64,000 nt of DNA, taken from the NCBI RefSeq assembly GCF_040529065.1, contig NZ_CP132343.1, positions 3,472,001 through 3,536,000 of the forward strand. Reading direction: 5' to 3'. Source of the DNA: Xanthomonas sacchari. Its GTDB lineage: Bacteria > Pseudomonadota > Gammaproteobacteria > Xanthomonadales > Xanthomonadaceae. Made by a program: the position numbers and the translations under genes. The notes beneath the pieces were generated by a model, which saw only the letters and a list, made by a program, of their open reading frames with translations, did not search any database and was not told where the DNA came from. Shown here piece after piece: positions 446-32,440 of the stretch (position 1 is its first letter; every line of letters begins with the position of its first letter).

Positions 446-473
446 TTCCCGTGCGTGCGCTGCGTTGGCTCTC

Positions 474-538
474 GTAGGAGCGGCTTCAGCCGCGACAAAC
501 CTGATCGGTACCGCCGTCGCGGCTGAAGCCGCTCCTAC
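474..538. repeat. Family A palindromic repeat
   Basis: Inverted repeat with arms GTAGGAGCGGCTTCAGCC and its complement, separated by about 20 bases. It lies between ptsI and mgtE. The same element recurs at 17991, 23624, 39734, 57010 and 58740, and in turned-round form at 5695. It resembles the REP-type palindromes scattered between genes in Xanthomonadaceae. Confidence 0.9.
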
Positions 539-590
539 AGAAAACCGGCCCGCCGCGCGCGCAGGCCGGGGCCAATCAACGTTGCCACCT

Positions 591-656
591 TGTGGGAGGG
601 ACTTCAGTCCCGACGCCCGAACCCTTATCGCGTCGGGACTGAAGTCCCTCCCACAA
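591..656. repeat. Family B palindromic repeat
   Basis: Inverted repeat with arms GGGAGGGACTTCAGTCCC and its complement, followed by a run of A on the plus strand. A second full copy is at 3409; half copies are at 5907 and 39863. The A run is on the wrong side for a plus-strand terminator, so I treat it as a dispersed repeat. Confidence 0.88.
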
Positions 657-1042
657 AAAAACCGTCGCCCGCGTGCCGGCGTAGATGCGTCACTCCCATC
701 GACATTCCTCTCCCTGGCTTTCTGCCTTCTTTTTTCCTGGCTTCTGCACTGCTCTCTGCTTCCTTCTCGGTGCTACCTATTCCCCTGCTCCCCTGTTCCT
801 GCCCCCTGCCCTTTGCCTCTCGCCCGCTTCCCCAAGAGCAGTTTTTCGCTTGCTACCCCCGTCGCTTCTCTCCGAGCGCACTGCCCCGGCTCCGCTCTGC
901 ACTTGCGATTCCCGATTCCCAATTCCCCACTCCCGGCTCCACCAACACTGTGCTTCCCGCAACATGCAGGCGATAATGTTGGGATGAACATCTGACCGAC
1001 CGCGTTTCTCCGGAGCGCGGCCTCACCCGAAGGGAGCAGCGC
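657..1042. other. Intergenic stretch, pyrimidine-rich, upstream of mgtE
   Basis: No convincing gene. Roughly 685-960 is strongly biased to C and T on the plus strand, with several TTCCC/CCCTG-type words, and ends in tandem TTCCCGATTCCC-like copies near 909-935 that resemble the repeats between pilT and pilU. The mgtE ribosome binding site AAGGGAG lies near 1029-1035. I could not recognise a magnesium-sensing leader, though mgtE genes sometimes have one. Confidence 0.6.
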
Positions 1043-2401
1043 ATGGCCGACGCCGTCCGCCACGACAAGACCGCGCGGCAGCTGCGCATGCTGTCCGACG
1101 CGCTGGACAGCGGGCGCCTCGGCCCGGTGCGGCGCCTGGTCAATACGCTGGCGCCGGCCGAGATCGGCAACCTGCTGGAGTCGTTGCCGCCGGGCAAGCG
1201 CGAGGTGGTGTGGGGGCTGGTCGATCCGGAGGACGACGGCGAGGTGCTGGTCCACGTCGGCGAGGAAGTGCGCGAGAGCCTGCTCGCGGACATGGACCCG
1301 GACGAAATCGTCGCCGCGGTCGAAGACCTGGACATCGACGACCTCGCCAACCTGGTCGAGGACCTGCCGGACACGGTCATCGACGAAGTGCTCAAGTCGA
1401 TGGACCGCGAGAACCGCGAGCGGCTCGAGCAGGTGCTGTCGTATCCCGAGGACAGCGCCGGGCGCCTGATGAACCCGGACGTGGTCACCGTGCGCGCCGA
1501 TGTCAATGTCGACGTGGTGCTGCGCTACCTGCGCCTGCGCGGCGAATTGCCGGACCACACCGACCACCTGTTCGTGGTCAGCCGCCGCCACCAGTATCTG
1601 GGGCGGGTGTCGCTGGCGGCACTGGTCACCCACGAGGACTCCACCCCGATCAACCGGCTGATCGACGACGAGCAGCCGGCCATCGACGTCGGCGAAGGCG
1701 CCGACGAGGTCGCGCGGCAGTTCTCCGACCACGACTGGATCTCCGCGCCGGTGGTGGACGACAACAACATCCTGCTCGGCCGCATCACCATCGACGACGT
1801 GGTCGACATCATCCGCGACCAGGCCGAGCACCAGGCGATGAGCGCGGCCGGCCTGGACGAGGACGAAGACCTGTTCAGCCCGGTGCGGCGCGCGTTCCGG
1901 CGCCGCCTGCTGTGGCTGACGATCAACCTCGGCACTGCCTTCATCGCCTCCAGCGTGGTCGGCCAGTTCGAAGGCACCATCGCCAAGCTGGTGGCGCTGG
2001 CCGCGTTGATGCCGATCGTGGCCGGCATGGGCGGCAACGCCGGCACCCAGGTGCTGGCGCTGATGGTGCGCGGCCTGGCCCTGGGCCAGATCGGCGCCTC
2101 CAACGTGATCGTGCTGCTGCGCAAGGAGCTGTCGGTGGCGCTGATCAACGGCCTGGCGCTGGGCATCGGCCTGGGCCTGATCGTGCTGCTGTGGTTCAAG
2201 CAGCCGCTGCTGTCACTGGTGATCGGCTCGGCCCTGACCATCAACCTGCTCACCGCCGCGCTGGGCGGCGTGCTGGTGCCCCTGACGCTCAAGCGCCTGG
2301 GCTTCGACCCGGCCCTGGCCGGCGGGGTGATCCTGACCACGCTGACCGACGTGATGGGCTTCCTCAGCTTCCTCGGCCTGGCCACCCTGGTTCTGCTGTA
2401 G
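1043..2401 (+). CDS. mgtE: Magnesium transporter MgtE
   Basis: A 452-residue inner-membrane magnesium channel. The order of domains matches the family: an acidic N-domain (about 1-125), a pair of CBS domains (about 130-255, with the HLFVVSRRHQYLGRVSL stretch) that sense cytoplasmic magnesium, a connecting helix, then about five membrane segments from residue 285 to the end. The pore motif PIVAGMGGNAGTQ is intact. Length is normal for MgtE (about 450). The ATG at 1043 is preceded by a good AAGGGAG site. The neighbouring ptsI ends 600 bases upstream with repeats between, so mgtE probably has its own promoter. Confidence 0.96.
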   Translation: MADAVRHDKTARQLRMLSDALDSGRLGPVRRLVNTLAPAEIGNLLESLPPGKREVVWGLVDPEDDGEVLVHVGEEVRESLLADMDPDEIVAAVEDLDIDDLANLVEDLPDTVIDEVLKSMDRENRERLEQVLSYPEDSAGRLMNPDVVTVRADVNVDVVLRYLRLRGELPDHTDHLFVVSRRHQYLGRVSLAALVTHEDSTPINRLIDDEQPAIDVGEGADEVARQFSDHDWISAPVVDDNNILLGRITIDDVVDIIRDQAEHQAMSAAGLDEDEDLFSPVRRAFRRRLLWLTINLGTAFIASSVVGQFEGTIAKLVALAALMPIVAGMGGNAGTQVLALMVRGLALGQIGASNVIVLLRKELSVALINGLALGIGLGLIVLLWFKQPLLSLVIGSALTINLLTAALGGVLVPLTLKRLGFDPALAGGVILTTLTDVMGFLSFLGLATLVLL

Positions 2402-2578
2402 AACGTGCGCGTGCGCGGCGACTGCACGCGTCGCCGCAACCACCCCGGCACGACGCGCACGACGCGCCGGCACGCGCCTTGGCCGCCGGCTGACTGGCGC
2501 ATGTCCGCCGCCGCTGCCCGGGTTGTCGGAAAGACGCCAAGGCCACGATACTGCGGGCTCACCACCCGAGGGCCAGCC

Positions 2579-3397
2579 ATGTCGATGCGTTCGTTGCTGC
2601 TTCTGCTGTGCCTGTCGATGGTCGGCTGCAGCAGTTTGCCCAGCGACCCGGCCACCGGCCACTTCGTCAGCCGCCAGCTCACCCTCGATGGACGCATCTA
2701 CCGCTACCAGGTGTTCGTGCCGGCGCCGGCGCATCGCCAGGGCCCGGTGCCGGTCGTGCTGTTCCTGCACGGCTCTGGCGAGCGCGGCGACGACGGCCGC
2801 GACCAGACCACGTCCGGCCTGGGCCCCTACCTGCGCCGCCACCTGGCCGATTTCCCGGCCCTGGTGGTGATGCCGCAGGCGCCCGACGGCGAGGAATGGA
2901 ACGGCGCCAACGCGACCATGGCGCTGCAGGCGCTGGACGACAGCAGCGCCGAGTTCAACGGCGACCCGCAACGCACCTATCTGACCGGCATGTCGATGGG
3001 TGGCTACGGCACCTGGGAGATTGCCCTGAAGCAGCCGCAGCGCTTCGCCGCGCTGGTGCCGATCTGCGGCGCGATCCTGTCCCCGCACGAGGACCGCGAA
3101 TACCTGGTGGTGACGCCGGTGGCCTATCTGGCCGATCCCTACAGCGCGCTGGCGCAGCGCCTGCGGCACGTGCCGGTGTGGATCTTCCACGGCGCCCAGG
3201 ACGACGTGGTGCTGCCGCACGACGACCGCAAGATCGTGCGTGCGTTCAAGAACCTCGACGCCGACGTGCGCTACACCGAATACCCGCAGGGCAACCACAA
3301 CGCTTGGGATGCCACCTACCGCGATCCGAAGATGTGGCAGTGGCTGTTCGCGCAGAAGCGCAGCGACGCCGGCAACGAGACCACCGCCGAGAAGTAA
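2579..3397 (+). CDS. Alpha/beta-hydrolase lipoprotein (dienelactone hydrolase / esterase type)
   Basis: A predicted envelope-anchored serine hydrolase of 272 residues. The open frame runs further upstream, but the ATG at 2579 gives a clean lipoprotein signal: Met-Ser-Met-Arg, a run of leucines, and lipobox MVGC with Cys17. The nucleophile elbow GMSMGG places the catalytic serine near residue 139; the HGSGERG stretch after a hydrophobic strand supplies the oxyanion region, and Asp and His candidates lie in GAQDDVV and GNHNAW near the C-terminus. Members of this group are often annotated as phospholipase/carboxylesterase or prolyl-oligopeptidase-like. The substrate cannot be told. It sits alone between mgtE and a family B repeat. 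Confidence 0.85.
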   Translation: MSMRSLLLLLCLSMVGCSSLPSDPATGHFVSRQLTLDGRIYRYQVFVPAPAHRQGPVPVVLFLHGSGERGDDGRDQTTSGLGPYLRRHLADFPALVVMPQAPDGEEWNGANATMALQALDDSSAEFNGDPQRTYLTGMSMGGYGTWEIALKQPQRFAALVPICGAILSPHEDREYLVVTPVAYLADPYSALAQRLRHVPVWIFHGAQDDVVLPHDDRKIVRAFKNLDADVRYTEYPQGNHNAWDATYRDPKMWQWLFAQKRSDAGNETTAEK

Positions 3398-3408
3398 GCC
3401 GTCTCCAG

Positions 3409-3470
3409 GAAGGAACTTCAGTCCCGACGCCCCACCCTCACCGCGTCGGGACTGAAGTCCCTCCCACAAA
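3409..3470. repeat. Family B palindromic repeat
   Basis: Second full copy of the element at 591, beginning 12 bases after the esterase stop codon. The left arm has one departure (GGAAGGAACTTCAGTCC), the right arm is standard and again followed by an A run. Confidence 0.88.
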
Positions 3471-3664
3471 AAAGCCCATCGAGCGCGGCGTGCGACACGG
3501 CGTGGGCCCGACGCCAGGCTGCGCGAGCTGGGCCGCACCGACGCCAGGCTCAGCGTTCGCCGACAGGGGCCTCCACGGCGATCCGCGCCGACGCGTTGTC
3601 GCTGCCTGCGCAGCGCCCAGCCAAACCGCGTACAGTCCGCGCTTTCGTCGCGCATAGGTTAGGC

Positions 3665-4114
3665 ATGGTCGCCGCCCTTTCCTCATCACAGACCGCGTTC
3701 CAGGCCCGCCTGCGCGGCCTGGACCCGAGCGTGGCGGCGATCGCCGGCACGGTGATTCCACCGCTGCTGGTGCCGGCATGCGACGCCCCCTCGGCCCTGC
3801 AGCTCAGCGACAGCGGACGCTGGCTGTTGCAGGTGCTGGACGCACTGGACGCCCTGCACCAGGCCGCGCAGGCCAGCCGCCTGTCCGCCGATGCGCTGCG
3901 TCGCGACCAGAAGTTCGCCCCGCCCGGGCGGCCGTCGCTGCACCTGGTGCAGTTGCGCCAGCAGCAGGCGGCCGCGCAGCAGGCCGTGCGTCGCGCCAAC
4001 CAGTCACTGGCCCAGGCCGCCACCGGCTTCGTGCGCAGCGCCGGGCTGACGCCGCCGCCACGGACCGGACCGGTGGCGTTCGTGCAAGGGTGGATCGCAC
4101 GCCATCTGGGGTAG
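3665..4114 (+). CDS. Conserved-looking hypothetical protein
   Basis: I do not recognise this 149-residue protein. It has no signal peptide or clear membrane segment. Residues 1-60 mix hydrophobic and polar residues, followed by Ala/Gln-rich helical stretches (QLRQQQAAAQQAVRRANQSLAQAA) and a short C-terminal WIARHLG. The frame is open further upstream to 3596; I chose ATG 3665 because the extra N-terminus looks like untranslated DNA. GC-rich third positions support coding. It is flanked by a family B repeat upstream and the ArsB-like gene downstream in the same direction. Confidence 0.6.
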   Translation: MVAALSSSQTAFQARLRGLDPSVAAIAGTVIPPLLVPACDAPSALQLSDSGRWLLQVLDALDALHQAAQASRLSADALRRDQKFAPPGRPSLHLVQLRQQQAAAQQAVRRANQSLAQAATGFVRSAGLTPPPRTGPVAFVQGWIARHLG

Positions 4115-4373
4115 CGGCACCGCGGTGCCGCGCGGCCCTGGCGTGCAGGGATGTGCGGGCAGCCCCGCGACGCGTGTCTACGCAAACTAAACCGCGGGCG
4201 CCGGAGCGCCCATGTCGGCCCGGCCTGCACCTGCCCCGCTGCTATCCTGCACGCCCCTCGGACTGCGCTGCCCGCCGCCCCATGCCCGTGCCCTCCACCA
4301 TCGCCCTCCCCTGCCTCGTTCCAGCGGCCTCTTCGCGCGCGTGCCTCGGCGCCCGTGCCACGGCAGCGGCGGC

Positions 4374-5642
4374 ATGAGCATGCCCGTCGCGCATACGGCC
4401 AATCTCGCCACCTGGAGCATCTGCGCGCTGGCCACCGCCGGCGTGATCGCGCGGCCGTTCAAGCTGCCCGAGGCGTGCTGGGCGGTGGGCGGCGCGCTGC
4501 TGCTGATGGTGCTGGGGCTGATGCCCGGCGGCGAGGCGTGGCAGGCGGTACTCAAGGGCCTGGACGTGTACCTGTTCCTGATCGGCATGATGCTGCTGTC
4601 GGAGACCGCACGCGCCGAAGGCCTGTTCGACTGGGTGGCGATGCATGCGGTGAACCTGGCCAAGGGCTCGACCCAGCGCCTGTTCGCATTGGTGTTCGGC
4701 GTCGGCATCGTGGTCACCGCGTTCCTGTCCAACGACGCCACCGCGGTGGTGCTGACCCCGGCGGTGTACGCGGCCGCGCGCAAGGCCGGCGCCAAGCCGC
4801 TGCCGCTGCTGTTCGCCTGCGCGCTGATCGCCAACGCCGCCAGCTTCGTGCTGCCGATCTCCAACCCCGCCAACCTGGTGCTGTACGGCGGCAAGATGCC
4901 GACCCTGGGCGCGTGGATGGCCGCGTTCGCGCTGCCGTCGCTGCTGGCGATCGGGGTGACCTTCGTGATGCTGCGCTGGGCCGAGCGCAAGGACCTGACC
5001 GGCCATTGCGCCGCGCGCGTGGACACGGTGCCGCTGACCCGCGGCGGCACCTTCGCCCTGGTCGGCATCCTCGCCACCGCGGTGCTGCTGGTCGGCGTCT
5101 CCGCGCTGGGCCTGGACCTGGGCCTGCCGACCTGCCTGGCCGGCCTGGCGACGCTGGGCGTGGTCTGCCTGGGCGGCCGGCAGTCGCCGCTGCCGATGGC
5201 CAAGGCGGTGTCGTGGTCGGTGCTGCCGTTGGTGGCCGGCCTGTTCGTGCTGGTGGAGGCGCTGTCGCGCACCGGCGTGATCGGCCTGCTCGCGCGCACC
5301 CTGGCCGACGCTGCCGCGCACTCGCCGCAGGCCACCGCCGGCGTCGCCGGCACCCTGCTGGCGTTCGGCTCCAACCTGATGAACAACCTGCCGGCCGGCC
5401 TGATCGCCAGCACCACCGTCGCTCAGGCGCAGCCGCCGCAGCTGGTGGTGGACGCGCTGCTGATCGGCGTGGATCTGGGGCCGAACCTGTCGATCACCGG
5501 CTCGCTGGCGACCATCCTGTGGCTGACCGCGATCCGCCGCGAAGGCGAGGACGTGGGCTTCTGGCGCTTCCTCAAGGTCGGCGCGCTGGTGATGCCGCCG
5601 GCGCTGCTGTGCGCCCTGGGCGCACGCCTGCTGCTGGGCTGA
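4374..5642 (+). CDS. ArsB/NhaD-superfamily arsenite/anion permease
   Basis: A 422-residue inner-membrane transporter with about 11-12 membrane segments, close to the usual 429 of ArsB. Recognisable parts are the first half ending in VVTAFLSNDATAVVLTP and the matching NAASFVLPISNPANLVLYGG, the conserved Asn/Asp-rich re-entrant motifs of the ion-transporter superfamily; the second half repeats the pattern (LLAFGSNLMNNLPAGL). ArsB pumps arsenite or antimonite out, alone or with ArsA. No arsR, arsC or arsA is near, so the true substrate is open. The start at ATG 4374 (MSMP) is preferred over the long upstream extension, which lacks membrane character. Confidence 0.85.
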   Translation: MSMPVAHTANLATWSICALATAGVIARPFKLPEACWAVGGALLLMVLGLMPGGEAWQAVLKGLDVYLFLIGMMLLSETARAEGLFDWVAMHAVNLAKGSTQRLFALVFGVGIVVTAFLSNDATAVVLTPAVYAAARKAGAKPLPLLFACALIANAASFVLPISNPANLVLYGGKMPTLGAWMAAFALPSLLAIGVTFVMLRWAERKDLTGHCAARVDTVPLTRGGTFALVGILATAVLLVGVSALGLDLGLPTCLAGLATLGVVCLGGRQSPLPMAKAVSWSVLPLVAGLFVLVEALSRTGVIGLLARTLADAAAHSPQATAGVAGTLLAFGSNLMNNLPAGLIASTTVAQAQPPQLVVDALLIGVDLGPNLSITGSLATILWLTAIRREGEDVGFWRFLKVGALVMPPALLCALGARLLLG

Positions 5643-5694
5643 GCGGCGCGCGTGCACGTCGTGGATTCGGCCGCGGTGGTTTCCATCGCAACGC

Positions 5695-5772
5695 GTCGCG
5701 GCTGAAGCCGCTCCTACAAGAGGCAGGTCCGCGAGCTGTCGGTGCCGTCGCAGGAGCGGCTTCAGCCGCGAC
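5695..5772. repeat. Family A repeat, arms in reversed order
   Basis: Arms GTCGCGGCTGAAGCCGC (5695-5717) and GGAGCGGCTTCAGCCGC (5747-5772) occur in the opposite order from the other family A copies. It lies between the convergent arsB-like and permease genes. The whole gap 5643-5965 holds only this, the half B repeat and no gene. Confidence 0.82.
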
Positions 5773-5906
5773 AGGCCTTGCCGCGACACCTGTCGCGGTT
5801 GCTCCATGAAAAGCAACACGCGCGACCGCTGCGGCGACACACATGACGCGCGCAAAGCGCTGTCATGCAGCCGCGACGAACGAAGCAAACGCCGTCCGAT
5901 ACCCTC

Positions 5907-5936
5907 ACGCGTCGAAACTGAAGTCCCTCCCACAAC
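5907..5936. repeat. Half copy of family B repeat
   Basis: Right arm only (CTGAAGTCCCTCCCACAA) with a slightly altered start. It sits about 30 bases past the 3' end of the minus-strand permease. Confidence 0.75.
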
Positions 5937-5965
5937 GGCATGCCGCCACCGCTGGAGCGCGCGCC

Positions 5966-7372
5966 CTACCCCGCGCGCAGCCGCCGCGCCACGCCGCTGA
6001 CCACGGCGATCACCGCGGTCAGCGCCGCCATCGACAGGAACTGCGTGCGGGTGTCCGGCGAGGCCACCAGCAGGCCGAAGATCAGCGCCAGGATCGCCAG
6101 CGCCAGCACGGTGAGCAGCGGATAGCCGCGCATGCGGAACGGCAGGCGGGTGCCGGCGCGGTCGGCGCGCGCGCGCAGGATCAGTTGCGACAGCAGCGAG
6201 ATCGTCCACACCAGCAGGCAGGTGGCGCCGACGATGTTCAGCAGCACCGGCAGCACCCGGTTGGGATACAGCAGCTCCAGCACCGCAGCGACGAAGCCGA
6301 ACAGCACGCTGGCCAGCACCGCCAGCCACGGCACCTGCTGGCGGCTGGACGCGGCCAGCGCGCGCGGCGCTTCGCCGCGCTGGGCCAGCGAGAAGATCAT
6401 CCGCGAAGCGCCGTACAGATTGGCGTTGAGCGCCGACAGCAACGCGATCACCGCGATCAGGGTGATGCCGGTGGCGGCGCCGGGGATGTTGGCCACCTGC
6501 AGCACCGCGGCGAACGGCGAACTCAGCGCCTTGCTCTGCCATGGCACCACCGCGATGATCACGCTCAGCGAGCCGATGTAGAACACCAGGATGCGCCAGG
6601 CGACGGTACGGATGGCACGGGCGATGCTGCGCTCCGGATCGGCGGTCTCGGCCGCGGCCACCGCCACGATCTCGGTACCGCCGAAGGCGAACACCACCAC
6701 CAGCAGCGCCGCGCCGATGCCGGCCAGGCCCTTCGGCGCGAAGCCGCCGTTGCCGGTGACGTTGGACAGGCCCGGCGAGGGGACACCAGGCAGCCAGCCG
6801 GCCAGCAAGGCGATGCCGACCAGGATGAAACCGACGATCGCCGCTACCTTGAGGATGGCGAACCAGAACTCGAACTCGCCGAAGTTGCGCACGCCCAGCA
6901 GGTTGATCGCGGTGAACGCGGCCATGAACGCGATCGCGGCCGCCGGCACCGGCAAGCCCGGCCACACCGTCGCCAGCAGGCCGGCCGCGCCCACCGCCTC
7001 GGCGGCGATCACGATCACCAGTTGCAGCCACCACAGCCAGCCCACGGTGGCGCCGGCGGTCGGCCCCATCGCGTCGGTGGCATAGACCGAGAACGCGCCG
7101 CTGGCCGGCTTGGCCGCCGCCATCTCGCCCAGCGCGTTCATCACGATGATCACCAGCGCGCCGGCGACCAGGTAGGAGATCAACACCGCCGGCCCTGCCG
7201 CGTGCACGCCGACGCCGGAGCCCAGGAACAGGCCGGCGCCGATCGCGCTGCCCAAGCCCATCATGATCAGTTGCCGTGGTTTCAGCGCGTGGCGCAGGGC
7301 GGGAGCGGCGGCGGACGGGACAGGCGCGGACGGATGCGGCATCGGCTCGGTCGGGTGCGGAAAACGCGACAC
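5966..7372 (-). CDS. Amino-acid permease (APC superfamily, AAT family)
   Basis: A 468-residue proton-coupled amino-acid uptake protein of the inner membrane with 12 predicted segments after a Pro-rich cytoplasmic tail of about 30 residues. The N-terminal signature LKPRQLIMMGLGSAIGAGLFLGSG is the conserved substrate-binding helix 1 of the GabP/CycA/ProY group, and FAFGGTEIVAVAAAE is the conserved helix 6 motif with the Glu found in that group. Substrate cannot be decided between GABA, D-serine/alanine/glycine and others. It is convergent with the arsB-like gene and divergent from the small secreted protein at 7844. An alternative start at the second Met (PMPHPSAP) is possible. Confidence 0.88.
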   Translation of the reverse strand: MSRFPHPTEPMPHPSAPVPSAAAPALRHALKPRQLIMMGLGSAIGAGLFLGSGVGVHAAGPAVLISYLVAGALVIIVMNALGEMAAAKPASGAFSVYATDAMGPTAGATVGWLWWLQLVIVIAAEAVGAAGLLATVWPGLPVPAAAIAFMAAFTAINLLGVRNFGEFEFWFAILKVAAIVGFILVGIALLAGWLPGVPSPGLSNVTGNGGFAPKGLAGIGAALLVVVFAFGGTEIVAVAAAETADPERSIARAIRTVAWRILVFYIGSLSVIIAVVPWQSKALSSPFAAVLQVANIPGAATGITLIAVIALLSALNANLYGASRMIFSLAQRGEAPRALAASSRQQVPWLAVLASVLFGFVAAVLELLYPNRVLPVLLNIVGATCLLVWTISLLSQLILRARADRAGTRLPFRMRGYPLLTVLALAILALIFGLLVASPDTRTQFLSMAALTAVIAVVSGVARRLRAG

Positions 7373-7843: not shown

Positions 7844-8326
7844 ATGATCAAACCGCTGCTGACCCTCACCATGCTGGCGGCCGCGCTGGCCGCGCCCTGC
7901 CTGCAGGCCGCCCAGCGCGCGCCGCTCAACGCCGCCGACGCGATCCAGGGCATGGGCGAACGCCTGCCCATCGGCAAGCAGAACGTCAGCCTGTCGCCGC
8001 TGTTCAAGGTCTACACGTTCGAGAAGGCCGGCCTGCGCTTCGTGCAGATCAACTCGCTGCAGGACGAGGTCATCACCGTGCTCAGCGCCACGCCCGGCAC
8101 CGACACGCGGCTGCCGATCGGCAGCGCCGCCGAGGAGCAGATGATCGCGGTCAACGACGCGAAGAACCAGCCGCTGGGCATGGTCACCGCCGCGGCCAGC
8201 TGCCCGTGCAACGCCACCGTGGTCTACCGCGACGCCACCACCACCATCGTGGTGGTCTACGGCTCCAACGGCGAGTACATCACCTCGTACGTGATCAAGA
8301 CCCCGCAGACCAAGCCGCCGCAGTAA
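7844..8326 (+). CDS. Small secreted (periplasmic) protein of unknown function
   Basis: A 160-residue protein with a standard Sec signal (MIKPLLTLTMLAAALAAPCLQA, cleavage probably after QAA). The start at 7844 has an AAGGAG site 8 bases upstream; the longer open frame from 7700 is untranslated leader. The mature part is short strands, with KVYTFEKAGLRFVQIN and VVYRDATTTIVVVYGSNGEYITSYVIK, and two cysteines in SCPCNATV separated by one residue. It looks like a compact beta protein. I do not recognise the family. It is a single gene with its own promoter and a strong hairpin 11 bases after the stop. Confidence 0.78.
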   Translation: MIKPLLTLTMLAAALAAPCLQAAQRAPLNAADAIQGMGERLPIGKQNVSLSPLFKVYTFEKAGLRFVQINSLQDEVITVLSATPGTDTRLPIGSAAEEQMIAVNDAKNQPLGMVTAAASCPCNATVVYRDATTTIVVVYGSNGEYITSYVIKTPQTKPPQ

Positions 8327-8337
8327 GTGCCGCTTAC

Positions 8338-8368
8338 GCGCTGCGGCCGCCCACTGCGGCCGCAGCGC
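8338..8368 (+). terminator. Strong stem-loop after the 7844 gene
   Basis: GCGCTGCGGCCGC and its exact complement form a 13-base-pair stem with loop CCACT, followed by GATTTGACTGTG. The T tract is short, but the stem is perfect and well placed. Confidence 0.65.
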
Positions 8369-8589
8369 GATTTGACTGTGGCCGTCGATGACCTGGCCGC
8401 CCGATCAGGACCGGCACTGCAGCGCCCGGCGAGGGCGATGCCTTCTGCATTCGCGCTGCTCCCTCTTGCGCAGGGGGACATTGGCCACGGGCGAGCCGAA
8501 GCTTCGCCCCACACGTCTCCGCACCAGCCGCCGCCTGCTCGCACACAGCAGCCGAATCGCGCACATCGCGCAGCGATGCACAAACGCAA

Positions 8590-8645
8590 GCGGCCGCCTT
8601 CCGAGGAAGACGGCCGCACACCAGCGGTCCGGGACACCGGACCGC
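8590..8645 (-). terminator. Two stem-loops after the first chemoreceptor
   Basis: Read on the minus strand, the nearest hairpin has arms GCGGTCC/GGACCGC (8624-8645); the second has arms GCGGCCGTCTTCC and GGAAGGCGGCCGC (8590-8617) followed by TTGCGTTTGTG. They begin 6 bases beyond the stop codon and probably end the chemoreceptor transcript. Confidence 0.6.
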
Positions 8646-8651
8646 GTCGGC

Positions 8652-10907
8652 TCAGAACTCCTGCCAGTCCTTGTCCAGCGCCACCGCCGCGGCGAACGCC
8701 GGCGCGCGTCGTGCCGGTGCGGCCGCGGCCAGCGGGCGCGGGCTGCGCACGGCCGTCGGCACGGCAGTCCTGGCACGCGCCTGCACCGGTGCTGGCGACG
8801 GCGCGGCAACGGGTGCGCCGTCCAGCTTGAACAGCGCCACCGCCTGGGTCAGCTCCACCGATTGCTGCTCCATCGAACGCGCGGCCGCGGTGGCTTCTTC
8901 CACCAGCGCCGCATTCTGCTGCGTGCTTTCGTCCATCTGGGTGACGGTCTGGTTGACCTGCTCGATGCCGGCCGACTGCTCCTGCGAGGCCGCGGAGATC
9001 TCGCCCATGATGTCAGTGACGCGCTGCACCGAGGCGACGATCTCCTGCATGGTGCTGCCGGCGCGATCGACCAGCGCCGAGCCCTCGGCAACGCGGGTCA
9101 CCGAGTCGTCGATCAGCGTCTTGATCTCCTTGGCGGCGTTGGCCGAACGCTGCGCCAGGGTGCGCACTTCGCTGGCGACCACCGCGAAACCGCGGCCCTG
9201 CTCGCCGGCACGTGCCGCTTCCACTGCGGCGTTGAGCGCCAGGATATTGGTCTGGAACGCGATGCCGTCGATGACGCCGATGATGTCGGCGATCTTCTTC
9301 GAGGACGCCTCGATCCCGCTCATGGTCTCGACCACCTGGCCCACCACCACGCCGCCCTGCGAGGCGACCGACGCCGCGCCGCTGGCGAGCTGGTTGGCCT
9401 GACGCGCGTGTTCGGCGTTCTGCTTGACGGTGGAGGTCAACTCTTCCATCGAGGCTGCAGTCTCTTCGAGGCTGGCAGCCTGCTGCTCGGTGCGACGCGA
9501 CAGATCGTCGTTGCCGGTGGCGATCTCGGTGGCCGCGGCATTGATGCTGACCGCCGCGGTCTGGATGCGGCCGACGATGCCGGTCAACTGGTCGGCGGTG
9601 GCGTTGGCGTCGTCGCGCATCCGCGCGAACACCCCCTGGAACTCGCCGTGCATGCGCGCGGTGAGATCGCCGGCGGCGATGGCCTGCAGCAGCGCCGACA
9701 GTTTGCCGAGATTGCGATCGCTGACCTCCATCATCGCGTTGAGGTCCTGCACCATCAGCCGGAAGTCGTGCTGGAAACTGGCCGCATCGCCGCGGGCACT
9801 GAAGTCGCCGGCCGCGGCCGCCGCCGCCAGACGCTTGATCTCGGTATTGATCGCCAGCAGGCTGGCCTTGGCCGCGTCCATCGACTCGTGCAGCACCGCA
9901 CGGCTGCCGGGCAGGCGACGCGCGTCGCGGCGCAAGTCGCCGTTGGCGTACTCGTTGAGGATCTCCACCGCCTCGACGATGGCATCCAGGTGCTCGAACA
10001 TCATGGTGTTGATGCCCTTGCTCAGCTCGCCGTACACGCCCGGGAAGTCCTGCGGCATGCGGTGGCTGATGTCCTTGTCCGCATGCAGTTCGATCATCAA
10101 CGCGGTTTCGCGGGAGAAGCGCTGCAACTGCATCTGCATCCCGTTCATCGCCAGCAGCAGGCGGCCAGGTTCGTCGCGCGCGTCGGTGGCCACGTCGTTG
10201 TCCAGGTGGCCGGCTGCGATGGCCTCGGCGGCAAGGGTGGCGCGATTCAGCGGCACGGTCAGGCTGCGGGTGATCAGCCAGGCCAGCACGCTGCTGACCA
10301 GCACCACCGCCAGGCCGCCGGCGATGAGCATGGCGCGCCCACGCGCCATCGCCGCCGTCGCCGCCGCATAGGCCTCGTTGCTGCGGGTAGCCTGCAGATC
10401 GGCGTAGCGGGCGATCGCATCCTGCCATTTCTGTGTCAGCGGGGCAGACTTCCCCATCAGCAGGGCCAGCGCCTCATCCGGCTTGTAGTGCATGCCCAGG
10501 TCGATGACGCGGTTGTTGACGTCCACGGTCAGCGCGCGGGCGCGATCGACCTCCTCCAGCACGGCCTGGCTCTGCGCACCGCTGGGAATGGCGCCCGCCC
10601 GCTTGCGCGCCTCCTGGTAGCGCGCGCGCTGCTCGGTGATGACCTTGGCGAAGCGGATGTTGTCTTCCTGGGAGGTCGGCAACACGATGTTGCGGACATT
10701 GATCGCCACGGCAGAGCTCGCGTTGAGCATCTCGCTGGAAGCACGGATCGCGGCGATGTTGCGCTGGACGATGCCGTCCAGCCGCTCGCGTGCCTGGAAC
10801 AGGGTGAACAGCCCGGCGACGACCAGCGCCGAGGACAACAGGATGAGGAGGCCAAACGCGGTGGCGAGCCGGGCACCGACGTTGTAGCGCTGAAGGAATG
10901 CAATCAT
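8652..10907 (-). CDS. Methyl-accepting chemotaxis protein
   Basis: A 751-residue transmembrane chemoreceptor. First membrane helix about 10-30, a periplasmic four-helix-bundle ligand domain about 32-190, second helix about 192-212, then HAMP and two further HAMP-like units (GDFSARGD and [11 protein letters not shown] regions), and the signalling hairpin with the conserved tip sequence ([20 protein letters not shown] nearby). The start at 10907 gives [11 protein letters not shown], identical in layout to the neighbouring receptor; the 29 extra upstream residues look untranslated. The protein ends DWQEF, matching the WxxF form of the CheR/CheB tether pentapeptide (NWETF in E. coli Tsr). Its ligand is unknown. 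Confidence 0.95.
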
Positions 10908-23819: not shown

Positions 23820-24956
23820 TCAGCCCGCCAGCCGCGCCTGCCAGAACGGCGCCTGCGCCCAGCGCCGCTCGCGCGCGTACAAGGCCCCGCGTTCGCGCAG
23901 GTAGGCGCGGAAGCGCGCGAACACGCCGTCCTGGTACGCCGCCAGCGGTGCCGGGCCAGCGCCTTGCAGATGCGCCGCCAGCGCATGCGCGGCCGCCTCG
24001 CCGTCCTGCAAGGCCTTGACGATGCCGTGGGCGGTCAGCGGATCGTAGGCGCTGGCCGCGTCGCCCACCGCCAGCCAGTCGGCGCCCACCACGCGACTGA
24101 GAATCGCCGACGGCCCCAGCGCCGCGATCAGGCCATCAGCCTCGGGCGCGCGCGCCGCGCCCTGCGCCAACCACTGCGCGACATGCCGGGTCTGCTGCGC
24201 CGCCGCCAGCCACACGTCGCGGTCCAGGAAGTGCCGTTGCCGGCGCGGCTCCAGCGCCAGGGCCAGCATCAGCCGCTGGTCCGGCAACTTCGCCGCATAC
24301 CACCAGCCGTCGGCGCAGGCCTCCAGCAAGGCCTGCGACGGAATCGCCTCGGCCTGCTCCAGCGCGAACACGCCGGCGACGAAGGCCAGGCAGTCCACCT
24401 CGTTGCGGGCAACGCCCAGCCGCCGCACGGCTGCGGCGGCGATACCGCTGGCATCCACCAGGAACCCGGCGCGCAGTCGGCGCACGTCGCCCTGCTCGCC
24501 TTGCAGCTCCAGCACGTGATCGCCATCGGCGGCGCGGCCGACCGCGCCCAGGCGCAGGCCGCGCAACAGCCTGCCGCCCTGCGCTGGCACCGCCGCGGCC
24601 AGCATCGCGTCGAAGGCGGCGCGGTCCACGTGCCAGCCCTTGCCCTGGCCGGCGACGATGAAATCGTTGTAGCCCAACTCCGGCCGGCCCCAACTGGCGC
24701 AACTGCCGGCCGAGGCCAGCGGCCGCTGCGCCAGGAACGCCTCCCACACGCCCAGCCGCTGCAGCGCCGCGCTGGCGGTCGGCGCCAGCGCCTCGCCCAG
24801 CCGCCAGCCCGCCGCGCGACCCATGTCCACCACGACCACGTCCTCGACCCCGCGCGCGGCCAGCGCCAGCGCGGTGGCGCAGCCGGCGGCGCCGCCGCCG
24901 ACGATCACCACGGCGTGGCGAGCGTCGCCGGCAACCGCGTCACCCGGACGAAGCAA
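23820..24956 (-). CDS. LodB-like FAD-dependent maturation flavoprotein
   Basis: A 378-residue flavoprotein related to tryptophan halogenase-type monooxygenases. The dinucleotide motif VIVGGGAAGCATALALAARG begins at residue 17 and the second FAD motif is GDAASAYDPLTAHGIVKAL near residue 295. In Marinomonas, LodB is required to form the cysteine tryptophylquinone cofactor of LodA. The gene starts with TTG at 24956 inside the end of the LodA-like gene (17-base overlap), which suggests translational coupling; a GTG 15 codons later is an alternative. Halogenase is less likely because of the LodA-like partner and because no KxWxWxIP-type motif is seen. Confidence 0.87.
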   Translation of the reverse strand: MLRPGDAVAGDARHAVVIVGGGAAGCATALALAARGVEDVVVVDMGRAAGWRLGEALAPTASAALQRLGVWEAFLAQRPLASAGSCASWGRPELGYNDFIVAGQGKGWHVDRAAFDAMLAAAVPAQGGRLLRGLRLGAVGRAADGDHVLELQGEQGDVRRLRAGFLVDASGIAAAAVRRLGVARNEVDCLAFVAGVFALEQAEAIPSQALLEACADGWWYAAKLPDQRLMLALALEPRRQRHFLDRDVWLAAAQQTRHVAQWLAQGAARAPEADGLIAALGPSAILSRVVGADWLAVGDAASAYDPLTAHGIVKALQDGEAAAHALAAHLQGAGPAPLAAYQDGVFARFRAYLRERGALYARERRWAQAPFWQARLAG

Positions 24957-27060
24957 GCCCTTCGGCCTCGGTACTGGGGCACTTCGGCTTCGCCGCGGAC
25001 GTGAAGGCGGGTACGTCCGCCATCGGCCAGGGCGCCACGAATTCCTTGCCCGGGTCGAACCCGCTCGCCACTTCCAGGAACATATCCGGCGGATAGTCGG
25101 GCATGCCGTTCGGTGCGGCGATCTGGTTGCCGCTGATCAGGAAGCCGACCTTGGCCCAGTTGGCGACGAAATCCTCGTAGCACTGGAAGCGCCCGGCCTG
25201 CGCCGGATAGTCGCTGTCGGTGCCGGCGCCGCGCACCGAGTAGACCTGTGACCCCAGGTACCAGGTGTCGTCGTCCGGATCGACCTGGCACAGCGCCGCC
25301 GGGTACACGGCGAATGGCCGCTCCGCCGGCCACGACCAGAACAGGGTATTGTTCGGATTGACCGTCTGCTGCCCGGGATTGGGATCGGGCAGATGGGTGG
25401 CGCAGGAGTTGTAGTCGGTATGCCAGGGCACCGACATGAATTTGGACAGATCGCCCGGCTCCACCGGATGCGTTTGCAGCGGCACATAGCCGAAGCTCAG
25501 GAACGCGCTGTCCTTGCTCGCCTTGCCGTAGTCCAGCGGCGCCTGGTTGATGCGGAACGGACCACAGTCCTTGGCCTGCCAGTCCTGCACGTAGAGGTTG
25601 ACGTCGCGGATCGGGAACGACACCTCGATGCCGGGGCTGTAGCGGCCGCCCAGGCAGTTCTGCAGCGTGGCGCGATCCAGCGCTTCGCCCGGCCCCAGCG
25701 TCGGCGCGCCCACCTGCACGTAGTTGTTGCCGTGCCACTGGCTCAGCAGGAAGTACTGGGTGGAACTGACGCTGAGGAAACTCTTCTGCGCATCGCCCAG
25801 CGACAGCGGCATCATCGGCGAGCCGGTCTCGGTGTCCGCAGCGGAAGCCGGATCGCGGATCAGCGTCTTCAGGTTGGGAATCTTGGCGCCCGGATCGTCG
25901 GTGGGCTGGATCTGCCCGATCGTGTCGTGGCCCTTGATCGCCCCCGACGGCAGATTGGTGTTCCACCGCTGCAGCATCGCCGCGTGGAAGATCGGCTGGA
26001 TGTCGTCGCTGAAGGACGGCTTATAGGTCGGCAGGAACCCGCCGTTGGCGTACAGCGACGGCACCAGGCCCAGTGTACGTACCCACACGTCGTAGACGTC
26101 GTCCCAGGTGGACACCACGTTGCGGGTCTGCGGCGCATAGCCCGGATCGCCGGTGACATACCACGCGCCCTGCACGCTGGCGGTGCTGCCGTCGGTGAAG
26201 AGCAACACGGCATTGACCGGGCCATCGGCGGCATCGTCGTACCACAGGCCGTTCTCGGTCGGGTCGCCCAACTCCGGATACTTGCCGTCGGCCCCGATCA
26301 CCGCCGAGGTCCGGGCGAAGCCGCCGGCCACGATCAGCGCGCCGTTGGCCTCCACGCGCATGTCGCCCAACGAATCGAGCTTGCCGAGCGGTTCGTGCAG
26401 CGTATGGAACATCGAGGGGAAGCTGACCGGATAGGCCGGCTGCTGCTGGATCGTGCCGCCGGCATCGGCGTAGCTGGCGGTGGTGGTCATGTCGAAGGCG
26501 ACCACGCTGCTGCCCGCGGCGGCGGCGCTGAGTGCGCGCGGGCCAGCATCGATCACCAACTGCCGCAACCGCGTCGGATCGTTGGGATCGGCCGGATTGG
26601 CCGCATCGGGATAGTTCGGGTTGCGCAGTTCCAGCAAGCCGGGCTCCTCGTAGGCACCGATGCCGCGGAACTGGCCGCCCTGGCTCACCGTCGAATAGTT
26701 GTTGAGCTTCTTGTTGGCCAGGTGCACGGTCCAGACGATGTCCTTGACCGTCTTGCCGTCGATCGTGCTGCCCACGTCCACGCGCACGCCGCCGCCGTTG
26801 GGATAGGTGCCGGAACTGCCGCTGGGGTAGGCGTAGATGTGGAAGCGCGCGGCCTGGCGCTTGACGTTGCCGTCGGCGTCGCGGAATTGCGCGGCGGTGA
26901 TCGGCGTGGATTCGGTCTCCGGCTGCACCGGCAGTCCGCCGAACCGGCCGTCGGCATCGCGGGTACCGGCCGCGGTGACCGGCGCGAGATAGAACTCCTG
27001 GCTGTCGCCGACGCGGCCGATGCCGATCGCCGGATGCACGCGAAACACGTTGCTGGTCAT
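24940..27060 (-). CDS. LodA/GoxA-like quinoprotein amino-acid oxidase
   Basis: A 706-residue member of the LodA family, whose studied members (lysine epsilon-oxidase, glycine oxidase) use a cysteine tryptophylquinone made from their own residues. The N-terminus MTSNVFRVHPAIGIGRVGDS and the core CLGGRYSPGIEVSFPIRD are typical. The cofactor region reads VPWHTDYNSCA, with Cys553 as probable cross-linked cysteine and Asp549 four residues before it, the same spacing as Asp512/Cys516 of LodA as I recall it. The Trp partner should be in FWSWPAERP (Trp575 or Trp577). No signal peptide is visible. ATG 27060 has an AGGAG site. The substrate is not predictable by eye. Confidence 0.88.
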   Translation of the reverse strand: MTSNVFRVHPAIGIGRVGDSQEFYLAPVTAAGTRDADGRFGGLPVQPETESTPITAAQFRDADGNVKRQAARFHIYAYPSGSSGTYPNGGGVRVDVGSTIDGKTVKDIVWTVHLANKKLNNYSTVSQGGQFRGIGAYEEPGLLELRNPNYPDAANPADPNDPTRLRQLVIDAGPRALSAAAAGSSVVAFDMTTTASYADAGGTIQQQPAYPVSFPSMFHTLHEPLGKLDSLGDMRVEANGALIVAGGFARTSAVIGADGKYPELGDPTENGLWYDDAADGPVNAVLLFTDGSTASVQGAWYVTGDPGYAPQTRNVVSTWDDVYDVWVRTLGLVPSLYANGGFLPTYKPSFSDDIQPIFHAAMLQRWNTNLPSGAIKGHDTIGQIQPTDDPGAKIPNLKTLIRDPASAADTETGSPMMPLSLGDAQKSFLSVSSTQYFLLSQWHGNNYVQVGAPTLGPGEALDRATLQNCLGGRYSPGIEVSFPIRDVNLYVQDWQAKDCGPFRINQAPLDYGKASKDSAFLSFGYVPLQTHPVEPGDLSKFMSVPWHTDYNSCATHLPDPNPGQQTVNPNNTLFWSWPAERPFAVYPAALCQVDPDDDTWYLGSQVYSVRGAGTDSDYPAQAGRFQCYEDFVANWAKVGFLISGNQIAAPNGMPDYPPDMFLEVASGFDPGKEFVAPWPMADVPAFTSAAKPKCPSTEAEGLASSG

Positions 27061-27097
27061 GGTGACTTGCTCCTGATCCGGGTGAGAGGGACGCGCC

Positions 27098-28549
27098 TCA
27101 GCGCGGCGTGGCCGGCCGCGCCGCCGGCGGTGCCTTCTGCGGCAACTGCGCCTGGAAGTAGTCGTTGATCACCACGTGGCTGATGTTGACGTTCAGCCCC
27201 GGCAACGACTGCGCGCGCGGATCGGGCGAGATCACCTGGGTGGTGTTGTGGCAGGCGAAGCAGTTGTTCTGCGTACTCTGCACCTGGGTGAAGGTCTCGA
27301 TGGTGGAGTTGGACAGCTTGATCGAGCCGGTGAGCAGCGGCGGCGCACCTGCGGGTGTCGGCGTGGGAATGCATTCCAGGGCCGAACCCGGTTGGAACGT
27401 GCAGTTGGGCGCCAAGGCATCCTCGGCGACGAACCAGATCGCGCCGACCTCGAAGTAGTTCTTCCACACGTCGTTCAACTGGCCCTGCACCGACGCGTTG
27501 ATCGACTGGATGTTGGCGATGTTGCAGTCCTGACCGCTCGGGCACGGCTTCTGCCCGCCAAACGGCACCATGCGGCACACCTGCGTGACCGGGCTCAGGG
27601 TCTGCGTCTGCGCGTTCAAGGTCAGCGCACCGGCACCGGCCGCGTTGACGTTGCATTGCTTCATCGGCGTGCCTGCCTGGTAGAACGTCCAGTCCTTTGC
27701 GGAAACGACGTCGTTGGGCAGCATTTCCTCCGCCGGCTTCGGCAGGTCCGGCGCGTTGTCCTGGTGCTCGAACGTGGCCCAGATCATCTCCGGATGGCCG
27801 TTGACCGTACCGCCGATGTGGAAGCCGACCAGCGCCACGGTCTGGGTCTCGGTATCGCTGGTGGCGACGATCTTGCCCTTGCGCATGCCCAGCTTGGCGA
27901 TCGTGGCCTGTCGGGTATAGAACGTGGACACGTCCTCGCCCGGCTGCACCACCTTCCATGCCGCCTTCAGGGTCATGCTGCCGACCGGGAAGGGCGTCTT
28001 CGGATCGAAGGCACGCAACGCCTTGGGATCCTGCAGGTGATTGCTGGCCATGAACTGGCCGAACACGTCGTTGGAATGGATCGAGTAATAGACCGCGCGC
28101 CCATGCCGGTCCACCAGCACGCCATCCGGGCCTGCCTGATCGATCAGCTCCACCGTGCGCGCCTGCTGCGAGCGACCGATCAGCGGATCGAGCACGCCGT
28201 TGGCGACGCCGCCGATGCCGTCGCTGGGCATGGTCAGGAAACGCGGCTGCCCGCCCACGTCCTGGGTCAACCACAGGAAAGCGTTCCACGACCACTGATG
28301 GAAGGCGCAGTTGCTGCTGGACTGGAAGCCCGCCGAATCCGGTGCCGGCGTCTGCGCATGTGGAAACCATGATGGCGCTGGCGCCGCCGGTGGCGCGCAC
28401 GCCGCTGCGCTCGGCGCCGGCCCTGGCGCGGGCCCCGGCGTGGGCGTACCGACACCGCTGCCGGGCTTCGGCCCGGACCCCGGATTCACGGCAGAACATG
28501 CCGCGACCACCACACAGACCAATGCCGCGAATCCCATCGCACGTTTCAT
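27098..28549 (-). CDS. c-type heme lipoprotein upstream of the quinoprotein
   Basis: A 483-residue protein with a lipoprotein signal (lipobox VAAC, Cys18), then a Pro/Gly/Ala-rich linker to about residue 65. A single heme attachment site CFACH is at 430-434, only about 50 residues from the end. No Met follows it; His in NISHVVIND is a candidate second ligand. The large middle part, with FHQWSWNAFLWLTQ near the start, matches no cytochrome fold I know. ATG 28549 has a GAGGA site and gives the clean signal. The quinoprotein gene follows after 37 bases, so it is probably in the same mRNA, and may be the electron acceptor or membrane partner. Confidence 0.8.
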   Translation of the reverse strand: MKRAMGFAALVCVVVAACSAVNPGSGPKPGSGVGTPTPGPAPGPAPSAAACAPPAAPAPSWFPHAQTPAPDSAGFQSSSNCAFHQWSWNAFLWLTQDVGGQPRFLTMPSDGIGGVANGVLDPLIGRSQQARTVELIDQAGPDGVLVDRHGRAVYYSIHSNDVFGQFMASNHLQDPKALRAFDPKTPFPVGSMTLKAAWKVVQPGEDVSTFYTRQATIAKLGMRKGKIVATSDTETQTVALVGFHIGGTVNGHPEMIWATFEHQDNAPDLPKPAEEMLPNDVVSAKDWTFYQAGTPMKQCNVNAAGAGALTLNAQTQTLSPVTQVCRMVPFGGQKPCPSGQDCNIANIQSINASVQGQLNDVWKNYFEVGAIWFVAEDALAPNCTFQPGSALECIPTPTPAGAPPLLTGSIKLSNSTIETFTQVQSTQNNCFACHNTTQVISPDPRAQSLPGLNVNISHVVINDYFQAQLPQKAPPAARPATPR

Positions 28550-30457: not shown

Positions 30458-30470
30458 TCTGGCTCACCGT

Positions 30471-30937
30471 ACCCTCATCCGCCCCTTCGGGGCACCTTCT
30501 CCCGAGGGGAGAAGGAACGGCAAAGCCCCTCTCCCCTCGGGAGAGGGGTTGGGGTGAGGGTACGGCGCGAAGCGTCTCGCAGCGCCAGGACGCACGAGGC
30601 TTCGCCCGCACCCTCATCCGCCCCTTCGGGGCACCTTCTCCCGGCGGGAGAAGGAACGGCTAAAGCCCCTCTCCCCTCGGGAGAGGGGTTGGGGTGAGGG
30701 TAAGGCGCGAAGCGTCTCGCAGCGCCAGGACGCACGAGGCTCCGCCCGTACCCTCATCGGCCCCTTTGGGGCACCTTCTCCCGAGGGGAGAAGGAACGGC
30801 TAAAGCCCCTCTCCCCTCGGGAGAAGGGTTGGGGTGAGGGTACGGCGCGAAGCGTCCCGCCGAACCAAGACCACGAGGCTCCGCCCCACCCCTCATCCGC
30901 CCTGCCGGGGCACCTTCTCCAGACGGGACAAGCGGAA
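30471..30937. repeat. Tandem array of a ~139-bp unit, three copies plus a partial
   Basis: Units begin at 30471, 30610, 30750 and 30888 with ACCCTCATCCGCCCC; the fourth stops after about 50 bases. Each unit contains two hairpin halves (CTTCTCCCGAGGGGAGAAG and CCCTCTCCCGAGGGGAGAG type) and a link with GCGCGAAGCGTCTCGCAG. Copies are nearly identical; the third and fourth have more changes. It lies between a membrane protein gene and the end of the GGDEF gene. Confidence 0.92.
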
Positions 30938-30940
30938 CCG

Positions 30941-32440
30941 TCAGCGCACCGCCACGGCGCGGCGCTGCCGCTTGTCCGCGTACATCTCCGCATCCGCGCG
31001 GGCGAGCAGTTCCTCCAGCGCTTCCGCATCCAGATCCCGCAGGCTGCACAGCGCCAGGCCGAAGCTGGCCGACAGGGCGGTGGCGAAGCCGTCGTCGTCG
31101 CCGGGTTTGGCCAGCGCCCCACGCAACGCGTCGATCAGCGCGTCCGCCCGCTCCGGCGTGGTCAGCGGCAGGTACAGCGCGAATTCGTCGCCCCCGCGGC
31201 GCCCCAGCAACTGGCCCGGCCGCAGGCAGCGCCGGCAGCGTTTGACGAAGGCGCGCAGGGCGGCATCGCCGGCGGCATGTCCGAACTGGTCGTTGATCGC
31301 CTTGAGGTTGTCCATGTCGGCGACGATCACCGCCAGCGGACGCGGGTCCTGCGCGGCCACTTGCAGATCGTTGAGTACCTGCTCCAGGAATCCGGTCCGC
31401 GACAGCGCCCCGGTCACCGGATCGCGTACCAGCGCATGGCGCAGCCGCGTGTTGTCGGCGTAGAGCCCCGGGACCGCGAGTCCGAAGTAGCTGTTCGCCG
31501 CCAGGCTGATCATGGCGAACTGCAGCGCCAGCGCCTGCGCCTCAAGCCGCAGCAAGGGCGTGGCCAGGGCGATCAGCAGGCTGAAGGCGGCGATCGCCAC
31601 CAGCGCCTGCAGCATCCCGTGGGTATGCACGATCCACAACTGGATCACCACCACCACGAACAGCGCGAACACCACCGCCGGCTGCCGCGGCAACGCGGCG
31701 GCCAACCCCATCACCGCCAGGGTGACGCCGAGCAGCAGCGCCAGCTTGACCAGATAGCCCGACACGCTGCCGGTGGGCGCGATCATCCCCGAGAAGCGCG
31801 GGATGCCCGGCTGCGGCACGATCCGCAGCGCCTCGGCCAGGCGCAGCACCGCGACGATCGCCAGCGGGCCGAGCGCCAGCAGGCCGGCGTAGTCGCCGAT
31901 CGCCCATGGGATCGACTGGGCAAGCAGGGTCGGCAGATCGATGGCGCCGGTGACGGCCAGCCCGGCCCCGCCCAGGCAGGCGGACAGCAGCGCGGCCACG
32001 CCGCCACCCAGGATGAAGGAGGTGACCACGCGCGGCAGGCTGGTCGAGGACACGCCACGGCCGACCCGGCGCAGCAGCCAGGCCAGCCCACCCCAGATGC
32101 AGAACTGTTGCGCGGTGAACAGCAGCGCATAGGCCAGCACCGCACGGTCGGGGACGGCCGCGTGGTCGCTCGCACGATAGAAACTGAGCAGCGTAGCCAG
32201 CACGCAGGCCGTGGCGATCGCCGGCGCGCCGCGCCAGCCCAACACCATGAACGTGGCCAGCGTCACCGCGACCGGCGGGAACCACAGGCTGGTGTGCGGC
32301 TGATAACCCAGCACCCGCGCCAGGTCGAAGACCGCCAGCCACGCCACCACCAGCACCGCCGACAGCAGCACCAGCGCGCCAGGGCGGCGCGGCGCCGCGG
32401 CGCGCGTGCGAAACGGCGCCTCGGCGTCCCTGCCTGTCAT
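30941..32440 (-). CDS. MASE1-type membrane diguanylate cyclase (GGDEF)
   Basis: A 499-residue protein expected to make cyclic di-GMP from GTP. Residues about 20-305 hold eight or more membrane segments in MASE1 style (HTSLWFPPVAVTLATFM, IPWAIGDYAGLLALGPLAI). The GGDEF domain runs from about 335, with DPVTGALSRTGFL, the metal-site DMDNLKAINDQFGH and the active-site GGDEF at 416-420, all intact. No RxxD inhibitory site precedes the motif. The start ATG overlaps the propeller gene's stop by four bases (ATGA), which implies coupled translation. Confidence 0.9.
   Translation of the reverse strand: MTGRDAEAPFRTRAAAPRRPGALVLLSAVLVVAWLAVFDLARVLGYQPHTSLWFPPVAVTLATFMVLGWRGAPAIATACVLATLLSFYRASDHAAVPDRAVLAYALLFTAQQFCIWGGLAWLLRRVGRGVSSTSLPRVVTSFILGGGVAALLSACLGGAGLAVTGAIDLPTLLAQSIPWAIGDYAGLLALGPLAIVAVLRLAEALRIVPQPGIPRFSGMIAPTGSVSGYLVKLALLLGVTLAVMGLAAALPRQPAVVFALFVVVVIQLWIVHTHGMLQALVAIAAFSLLIALATPLLRLEAQALALQFAMISLAANSYFGLAVPGLYADNTRLRHALVRDPVTGALSRTGFLEQVLNDLQVAAQDPRPLAVIVADMDNLKAINDQFGHAAGDAALRAFVKRCRRCLRPGQLLGRRGGDEFALYLPLTTPERADALIDALRGALAKPGDDDGFATALSASFGLALCSLRDLDAEALEELLARADAEMYADKRQRRAVAVR

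Follow-up and report, generated by a model that had tools for sequence, protein, structure and literature searches.

Lysine 6-oxidase (LodA/LodB) and glycine oxidase (GoxA/GoxB) are encoded in operons in which an oxidase gene is followed by the gene for a flavoprotein maturase, and the usual picture of LodA-like quinoproteins is that of an oxidase served by a single helper. Other linkages were described in 2015: fungal LodA with PF12902 proteins as neighbours, LodA next to tyrosinase, and LodA fused to catalase-type or PF14518 domains (PMC4417212). Here we analyzed a window of 64,000 nucleotides from Xanthomonas sacchari (contig NZ_CP132343.1, positions 3,472,001 to 3,536,000; the host genome is a single contig of 4.96 Mb), in which a known type of LodA/LodB pair carries a c-type heme protein as a new third partner. 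The trio is unreported in the open-licence papers that were searched. The most useful result of the analysis is a swap of partners, in which members of the same LodA subfamily carry other iron proteins in place of the heme protein.

A c-type heme gene in front of a LodA/LodB pair

All three genes lie on the minus strand, beginning with that for a c-type heme lipoprotein of 483 residues (P0001, 27098-28549), followed by those for a LodA-like quinoprotein of 706 residues (P0002, 24940-27060) and a LodB/GoxB-like flavin adenine dinucleotide (FAD) protein of 378 residues (P0003, 23820-24956), the presumed maturase of cysteine tryptophylquinone (CTQ). The first two genes are separated by a gap of 37 bases (27061-27097, minus strand), in which an AGGAG motif resembling a ribosome-binding site precedes the LodA start. 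The LodA and LodB genes overlap by 17 bases (24940-24956), provided that LodB starts at a TTG codon within the 3' end of LodA. These coordinates agree with the arrangement given in an original prediction made for this DNA. An X. sacchari record with the same three-gene arrangement names the products 'hypothetical protein', 'LodA/GoxA family CTQ-dependent oxidase' and 'FAD-dependent monooxygenase'. Promoter and terminator scans found 0 and 0, respectively, and tRNA and Rfam scans gave no match.

P0002 contains the Pfam domains LodA_N (145.9 bits, cut-off 26.3) and LodA_C (119.6 bits, cut-off 25). Because its NCBIfam equivalog scores are 213 bits for lysine 6-oxidase LodA (cut-off 600) and 126 bits for glycine oxidase GoxA (cut-off 750), we place it, as judged from sequence, within the LodA family and outside both characterized enzymes. 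All 12 aligned proteins of its subfamily share D549, C553, W575 and W577, and a profile alignment to the Pseudoalteromonas glycine oxidase sets D549 on D678, C553 on C682 and W577 on W697, of which C682 and W697 form the cofactor of that enzyme. Asp678 is its conserved aspartate (PMC7876137). The Asp549/Cys553 pair and the tryptophan candidate in the WSWPAERP motif, both named in the original prediction, are borne out by these domain scores and alignments, and D549, C553 and W577 stand at the positions of a probable CTQ site.

P0003 scores 212 bits against both LodB and GoxB in NCBIfam, each under the cut-off of 400, and 142 bits against QhpG, in keeping with the predicted LodB-type FAD protein that starts inside the end of LodA. 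A LodB gene is present in 23 of 24 subfamily loci found through LodA, the remaining one (L173) ending with its contig, and in 10 of 14 trios found through the heme protein, the other four (L016, L018, L020, L024) stopping inside or at LodA. P0003 would help convert Cys553 and Trp577 of P0002 into CTQ.

P0001 starts at an ATG with AGGA upstream, and its N-terminal signal ends in a VAAC lipobox; together with one CxxCH at residues 430-434, this matches the lipoprotein with a heme site that had been predicted. Exactly one CxxCH is found in 40 of 42 heme-family rows, the two exceptions being a gene cut by a contig end (L038) and a match split over two reading frames (L041), so a chance occurrence of the motif was rejected. 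The host genome encodes CcmE, which is required for c-heme attachment. NCBIfam gave no match for the heme protein, whose closest named relative among the matches listed comes from Xanthomonas bonasiae (83%), and the family is named 'hypothetical protein' in all five plasmid records examined. Plasmids typed as conjugative from Rhizobium, Bradyrhizobium and Vibrio (L184, L186, L187) carry heme-family genes under this name, and an annotated LodA was not seen within about 7-8 kb of them in gene tables that are incomplete.

Co-occurrence, exchange and inheritance of the iron partner

Searching with the heme protein alone found 28 loci. LodA lies directly downstream on the same strand in 14 of them (L014-L027), titled Gamma-, Beta- and Alphaproteobacteria plus one Chitinophagales metagenome-assembled genome; L014 looks identical to the record of L044 and was counted once. 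In the other 14 (L028-L041) LodA is absent from the fetched stretch, and one genome (G769) has a heme-family gene and no LodA match anywhere. To lower the seeding bias of these loci, LodA itself was searched. Among 20 genomes of the genus, the window's own included, LodA is present in 13 and the heme gene in 11, always beside LodA. Samples of 369 and 398 genomes from outside the genus yielded 18 distinct LodA loci, only one of which (L059) belongs to the same subfamily; it is also the only one with the heme gene, the other 17 belonging to other LodA groups and having no heme gene in the fetched stretch. Within the stretches fetched from Saccharospirillum, Eilatimonas and one Chromobacterium genome, the heme gene adjoins the subfamily LodA and not other LodA copies.

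The subfamily was defined by a score of at least 700 bits to a LodA profile (A3), and only two loci score between 345 and 700 bits, the contig-truncated L016 and L160, which is a fragment of G1890. The 24 members found through LodA comprise 13 genus genomes (11 with the heme gene, 2 with a ferritin-like gene), L059, L082 and nine from further surveys, of which G1494, G1428, G1209 and G1536 have the heme gene, G912, G1160, G1203 and G1731 a ferritin-like gene and G1890 a fusion; G766, G767, G768 and G770 were omitted because they were met via the heme gene. The heme gene lies directly upstream of LodA in 17 of the 24, a figure in which bias remains, the profile having been built from 11 heme-type proteins and 1 ferritin-type protein and three surveys having been centred on trio-carrying genomes. 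A script based on stop-free frames counted 16 heme, 5 ferritin-like and 3 none; in L051 and L165 the LodA frame extends backwards across the adjacent gene, and these two were assigned by match positions. A lack of conservation of the heme gene beside LodA/LodB in related genomes had been set beforehand as refuting the original prediction; the gene is conserved there, in loci of both seedings and far beyond the genus. A wider operon was rejected, as no further family recurs around the trio beyond overlapping reading frames.

The partnership is not strictly confined to this subfamily, since divergent members of the heme family adjoin LodA genes of other groups in L178 and L179, where a tyrosinase is also present, and another stands about 3 kb away from LodA in L182. 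In L178 (5489-12618) and L179 (4131-11772), tyrosinase, LodA, LodB and a very divergent heme-family CxxCH protein stand in one cluster, and L016 carries a tandem pair of heme-family genes (2889-4379 and 4568-6073) before LodA.

A PF12902 ferritin-like gene occupies the slot of the heme gene in 6 of the 24 subfamily members, two of them Xanthomonas (L042, L043), and in one member (L173) LodA itself is fused to a PF14518 iron redox domain (3-3929 of that locus, minus strand, with a frame that runs off the contig). Pfam confirmed PF12902 in four of the six ferritin-type loci (L042, L165, L168, L172), L043 and L169 lying outside the Pfam run, and the ferritin-like profile was built from five of the six loci that it scores. 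Heme and ferritin-like genes were not seen together beside a subfamily LodA, in flanks of which several are short; weak ferritin-like matches lie at least 4 kb away in L020 and L082. PF12902 was not found in the window's genome, and across 14 control genomes PF18417 and PF12902 each match in Caulobacter vibrioides only. Upstream of other LodA groups stand distant ferritin-like proteins, tyrosinases or nothing detected by the profiles used. At one locus (L032), a PF12902 ferritin-like gene lies about 2.3 kb from a heme-family gene (4559-5605 and 7959-9485), with LodA absent from the fetched stretch.

Comparison of P0002 with the LodA groups, as proposed with the original prediction, put it inside the family in a subfamily clade of its own. 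In a tree of 57 chosen LodA rows, the subfamily forms one clade of 30 rows with a Shimodaira-Hasegawa-like approximate likelihood ratio test (SH-aLRT) support of 100, inside which lie two ferritin-type lineages placed by a fork with a support of 82; in a tree of 42 chosen heme rows, those linked to LodA, 25 in number, group together in a single clade (SH-aLRT 95). Both trees were made by a quick method.

Recent acquisition by Xanthomonas was rejected, since the trio holds the same, syntenic place in the window and in another 10 genomes of the genus (L044-L053). All three genes are under purifying selection in Xanthomonas: the median ratio of nonsynonymous to synonymous substitution rates (dN/dS) over 11 copies and 55 pairs is 0.31 for the heme gene, 0.29 for LodA and 0.22 for LodB, and across 20 trio loci (190 pairs) the distances of the heme protein and LodA correlate at 0.945, with pairings with LodB at 0.873 and 0.875, figures to which, as to the dN/dS values, shared descent contributes. 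We read the three genes as one co-inherited module. Elsewhere in the window, 30467-30947 holds an intergenic array of GC-rich tandem repeats, three to four in number and each about 140 bases long; L046 aligns to several shifted copies of this repeat, and its copy number seems variable.

Predicted fold and possible chemistry of the heme partner

The predicted structure of P0001, which holds long insertions of low confidence, is nearest to P460/c'-beta proteins: they fill the first 17 VIA rows (six different proteins and variants; the next row is 3.3) and Foldseek ranks 1, 3 and 5. As marks of P460/c'-beta we took a five-stranded antiparallel beta fold with a C-terminal c-heme, and a CXXCH whose proximal His has a Tyr nearby. 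Pfam P460 (PF16694) scores 19.9 bits in P0001, below its gathering score of 27, and is the family with the most matches among heme-family members (5 of 25, weak, with E up to 1), and none of the matches listed by sequence searches of the PDB, whether made with the heme protein, its profile or its core, was a P460 entry. By its nearest predicted fold, at a modest fold score, the heme protein appears to be a divergent, enlarged P460/c'-beta-like protein.

P460/c'-beta proteins have ligand-binding, mono-His hemes with an open site and wild-type potentials of -205 to -424 mV, and they differ by pocket in oxidizing hydroxylamine, binding nitric oxide (NO) or showing peroxidase-like activity via ferryl; with hydrogen peroxide (H2O2), Nitrosomonas c'-beta gives ferryl and peroxidase-like activity, and the P460 heme-Lys bond itself forms with peroxide (PMC11928373). 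P460 enzymes depend on a Lys together with a carboxylate on the distal side, and in the superfamily a Tyr lies near the proximal His (PMC11928373). The heme family shows K195 in 30/30, E254 in 29/30 and Y365 in 30/30, with the CxxCH also in 30/30. The likeness of these residues and of the fold would suit a P460-type hydroxylamine oxidase, or a binder of NO or other gas, placed beside LodA for nitrogen-oxide chemistry or protection. However, the residues are likened without an established residue register, LodA relatives release ammonium (PMC4417212), and only the trio genes recur in the flanks; we regard such a role as very improbable.

Our preferred, still tentative reading, to which we give somewhat less than an even chance, is that LodA is an oxidase and that the iron partner uses or removes its H2O2, perhaps on its product. 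It draws on the open site and peroxide chemistry of P460/c'-beta, on LodA relatives that make H2O2 (PMC4417212), and on the exchange of the heme protein for other iron proteins. P0002 would oxidize an amine or amino acid and pass the electrons to O2 as its characterized relatives do, yielding H2O2 and a carbonyl or imine; P0001, predicted to be exported, with one c-heme and an open iron site in its enlarged domain and lipid-anchored in this lineage, would use or remove that peroxide and might act on the LodA product as a peroxidase or peroxygenase. In the VioA/VioB pathway, an oxidase, the flavoprotein VioA, is joined by an imine-coupling protein, and by likeness to VioB after a flavin oxidase the iron partner may perhaps act on the oxidase product; VioB matches weakly in two of six PF12902 proteins from LodA loci, and the two subfamily ferritin-like proteins tested gave no match. 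The H2O2 reported for Chromobacterium violaceum (PMC4417212) was not used as evidence for the subfamily, eight of ten LodA matches in that genus having a distant ferritin-like gene upstream and scores of about 300 bits.

Among the main points against a peroxide-linked partner is the cell location of P0002, in which no N-terminal signal peptide was seen. Marinomonas LodA is secreted while LodB stays inside (PMC2855505), and in the LodA chain of 726 residues the family motif begins as early as residue 3, P0002 being built likewise; export without an N-terminal signal therefore has precedent, and by analogy P0002 may take the same route. The modest fold score of P0001 also counts against this reading, as does the Lys of Nitrosomonas P460, which prevents peroxidase-like activity (PMC11928373), if it is the same as the invariant Lys of the heme family. 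A more specific version seems improbable as a whole: a self-modifying CTQ oxidase would release H2O2 along with an imine or carbonyl, and an exported, enlarged P460-like heme protein, perhaps with a heme-Lys bond matured by the same peroxide, would use the peroxide on that product and be functionally interchangeable with ferritin-like and PF14518 partners. If true, three iron scaffolds of unrelated origin would have been taken up by one oxidase subfamily for the same task.

The original prediction instead suggested that the heme partner could accept electrons from LodA, which in full would mean that the reduced quinone feeds the respiratory chain through a dehydrogenase, as in quinohemoprotein amine dehydrogenase (QHNDH). 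A CTQ-type enzyme and a c-heme protein do stand together in one conserved operon, and QHNDH pairs CTQ with two c-hemes (PMC7876137). The replacements of the heme gene, however, are not cytochromes, the surroundings of the trio show no other recurrent respiratory gene, and half of the heme-seeded loci, as well as G769, have the heme gene apart from LodA as described above. Tryptophylquinone potentials, moreover, lie near or above +100 mV, against the low potentials of the superfamily whose fold P0001 resembles. Because of the predicted fold, the replacements and the heme loci without LodA, we judge a dehydrogenase unlikely and prefer the peroxide-linked reading.

The position of the partner gene directly before LodA, which it tracks, would also suit help in making the quinone, for example at the initial hydroxylation of the Trp or at the last oxidation step, with di-heme MauG, which serves tryptophan tryptophylquinone, as precedent (PMC7876137). 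Yet two genes suffice in the lod and gox operons (PMC4417212), the first hydroxylation is thought to be autocatalytic (PMC7876137), the heme protein is predicted to be exported whereas Marinomonas LodB is not (PMC2855505), and heme-family members occur without LodA. We consider this role less likely again than a dehydrogenase.

Relation to described systems

A conserved and swappable iron-protein partner suggests that many LodA-like quinoproteins act in a pair, and such a partner gives a direct handle on LodA substrates and products. The heme family would extend the P460-like proteins by a large branch that has so far gone unannotated, and would offer a case in which the meeting of such a heme with peroxide can be tested. 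P0001 resembles P460/c'-beta in its predicted core fold, in a single C-terminal CxxCH and in an invariant Lys and Tyr, but differs in its length (483 residues against chains of about 135-160), its sub-cut-off Pfam score, its low-confidence insertions and, in this lineage, its lipid anchor. VioA/VioB likewise sets an iron protein after an amino-acid oxidase, by analogy only.

QHNDH also unites CTQ and c-heme in one system (PMC7876137). The fold families here are of LodA type, P0003 is closer to LodB than to QhpG, and P0001 has one CxxCH in place of a di-heme subunit. The LodA operons with PF12902 or tyrosinase neighbours and the fusions to catalase-type or PF14518 domains resemble the trio in linking a metal-redox partner to LodA, but here a c-heme protein fills the slot, and a c-heme neighbour is unmentioned in the part of that account that was consulted (PMC4417212). 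With LodA/LodB and GoxA/GoxB the trio shares the oxidase-maturase gene order, the LodA_N and LodA_C domains and the conserved Asp, Cys and Trp, and it differs from both in standing far under their equivalog cut-offs, in forming a separate clade and in its extra upstream c-heme gene.
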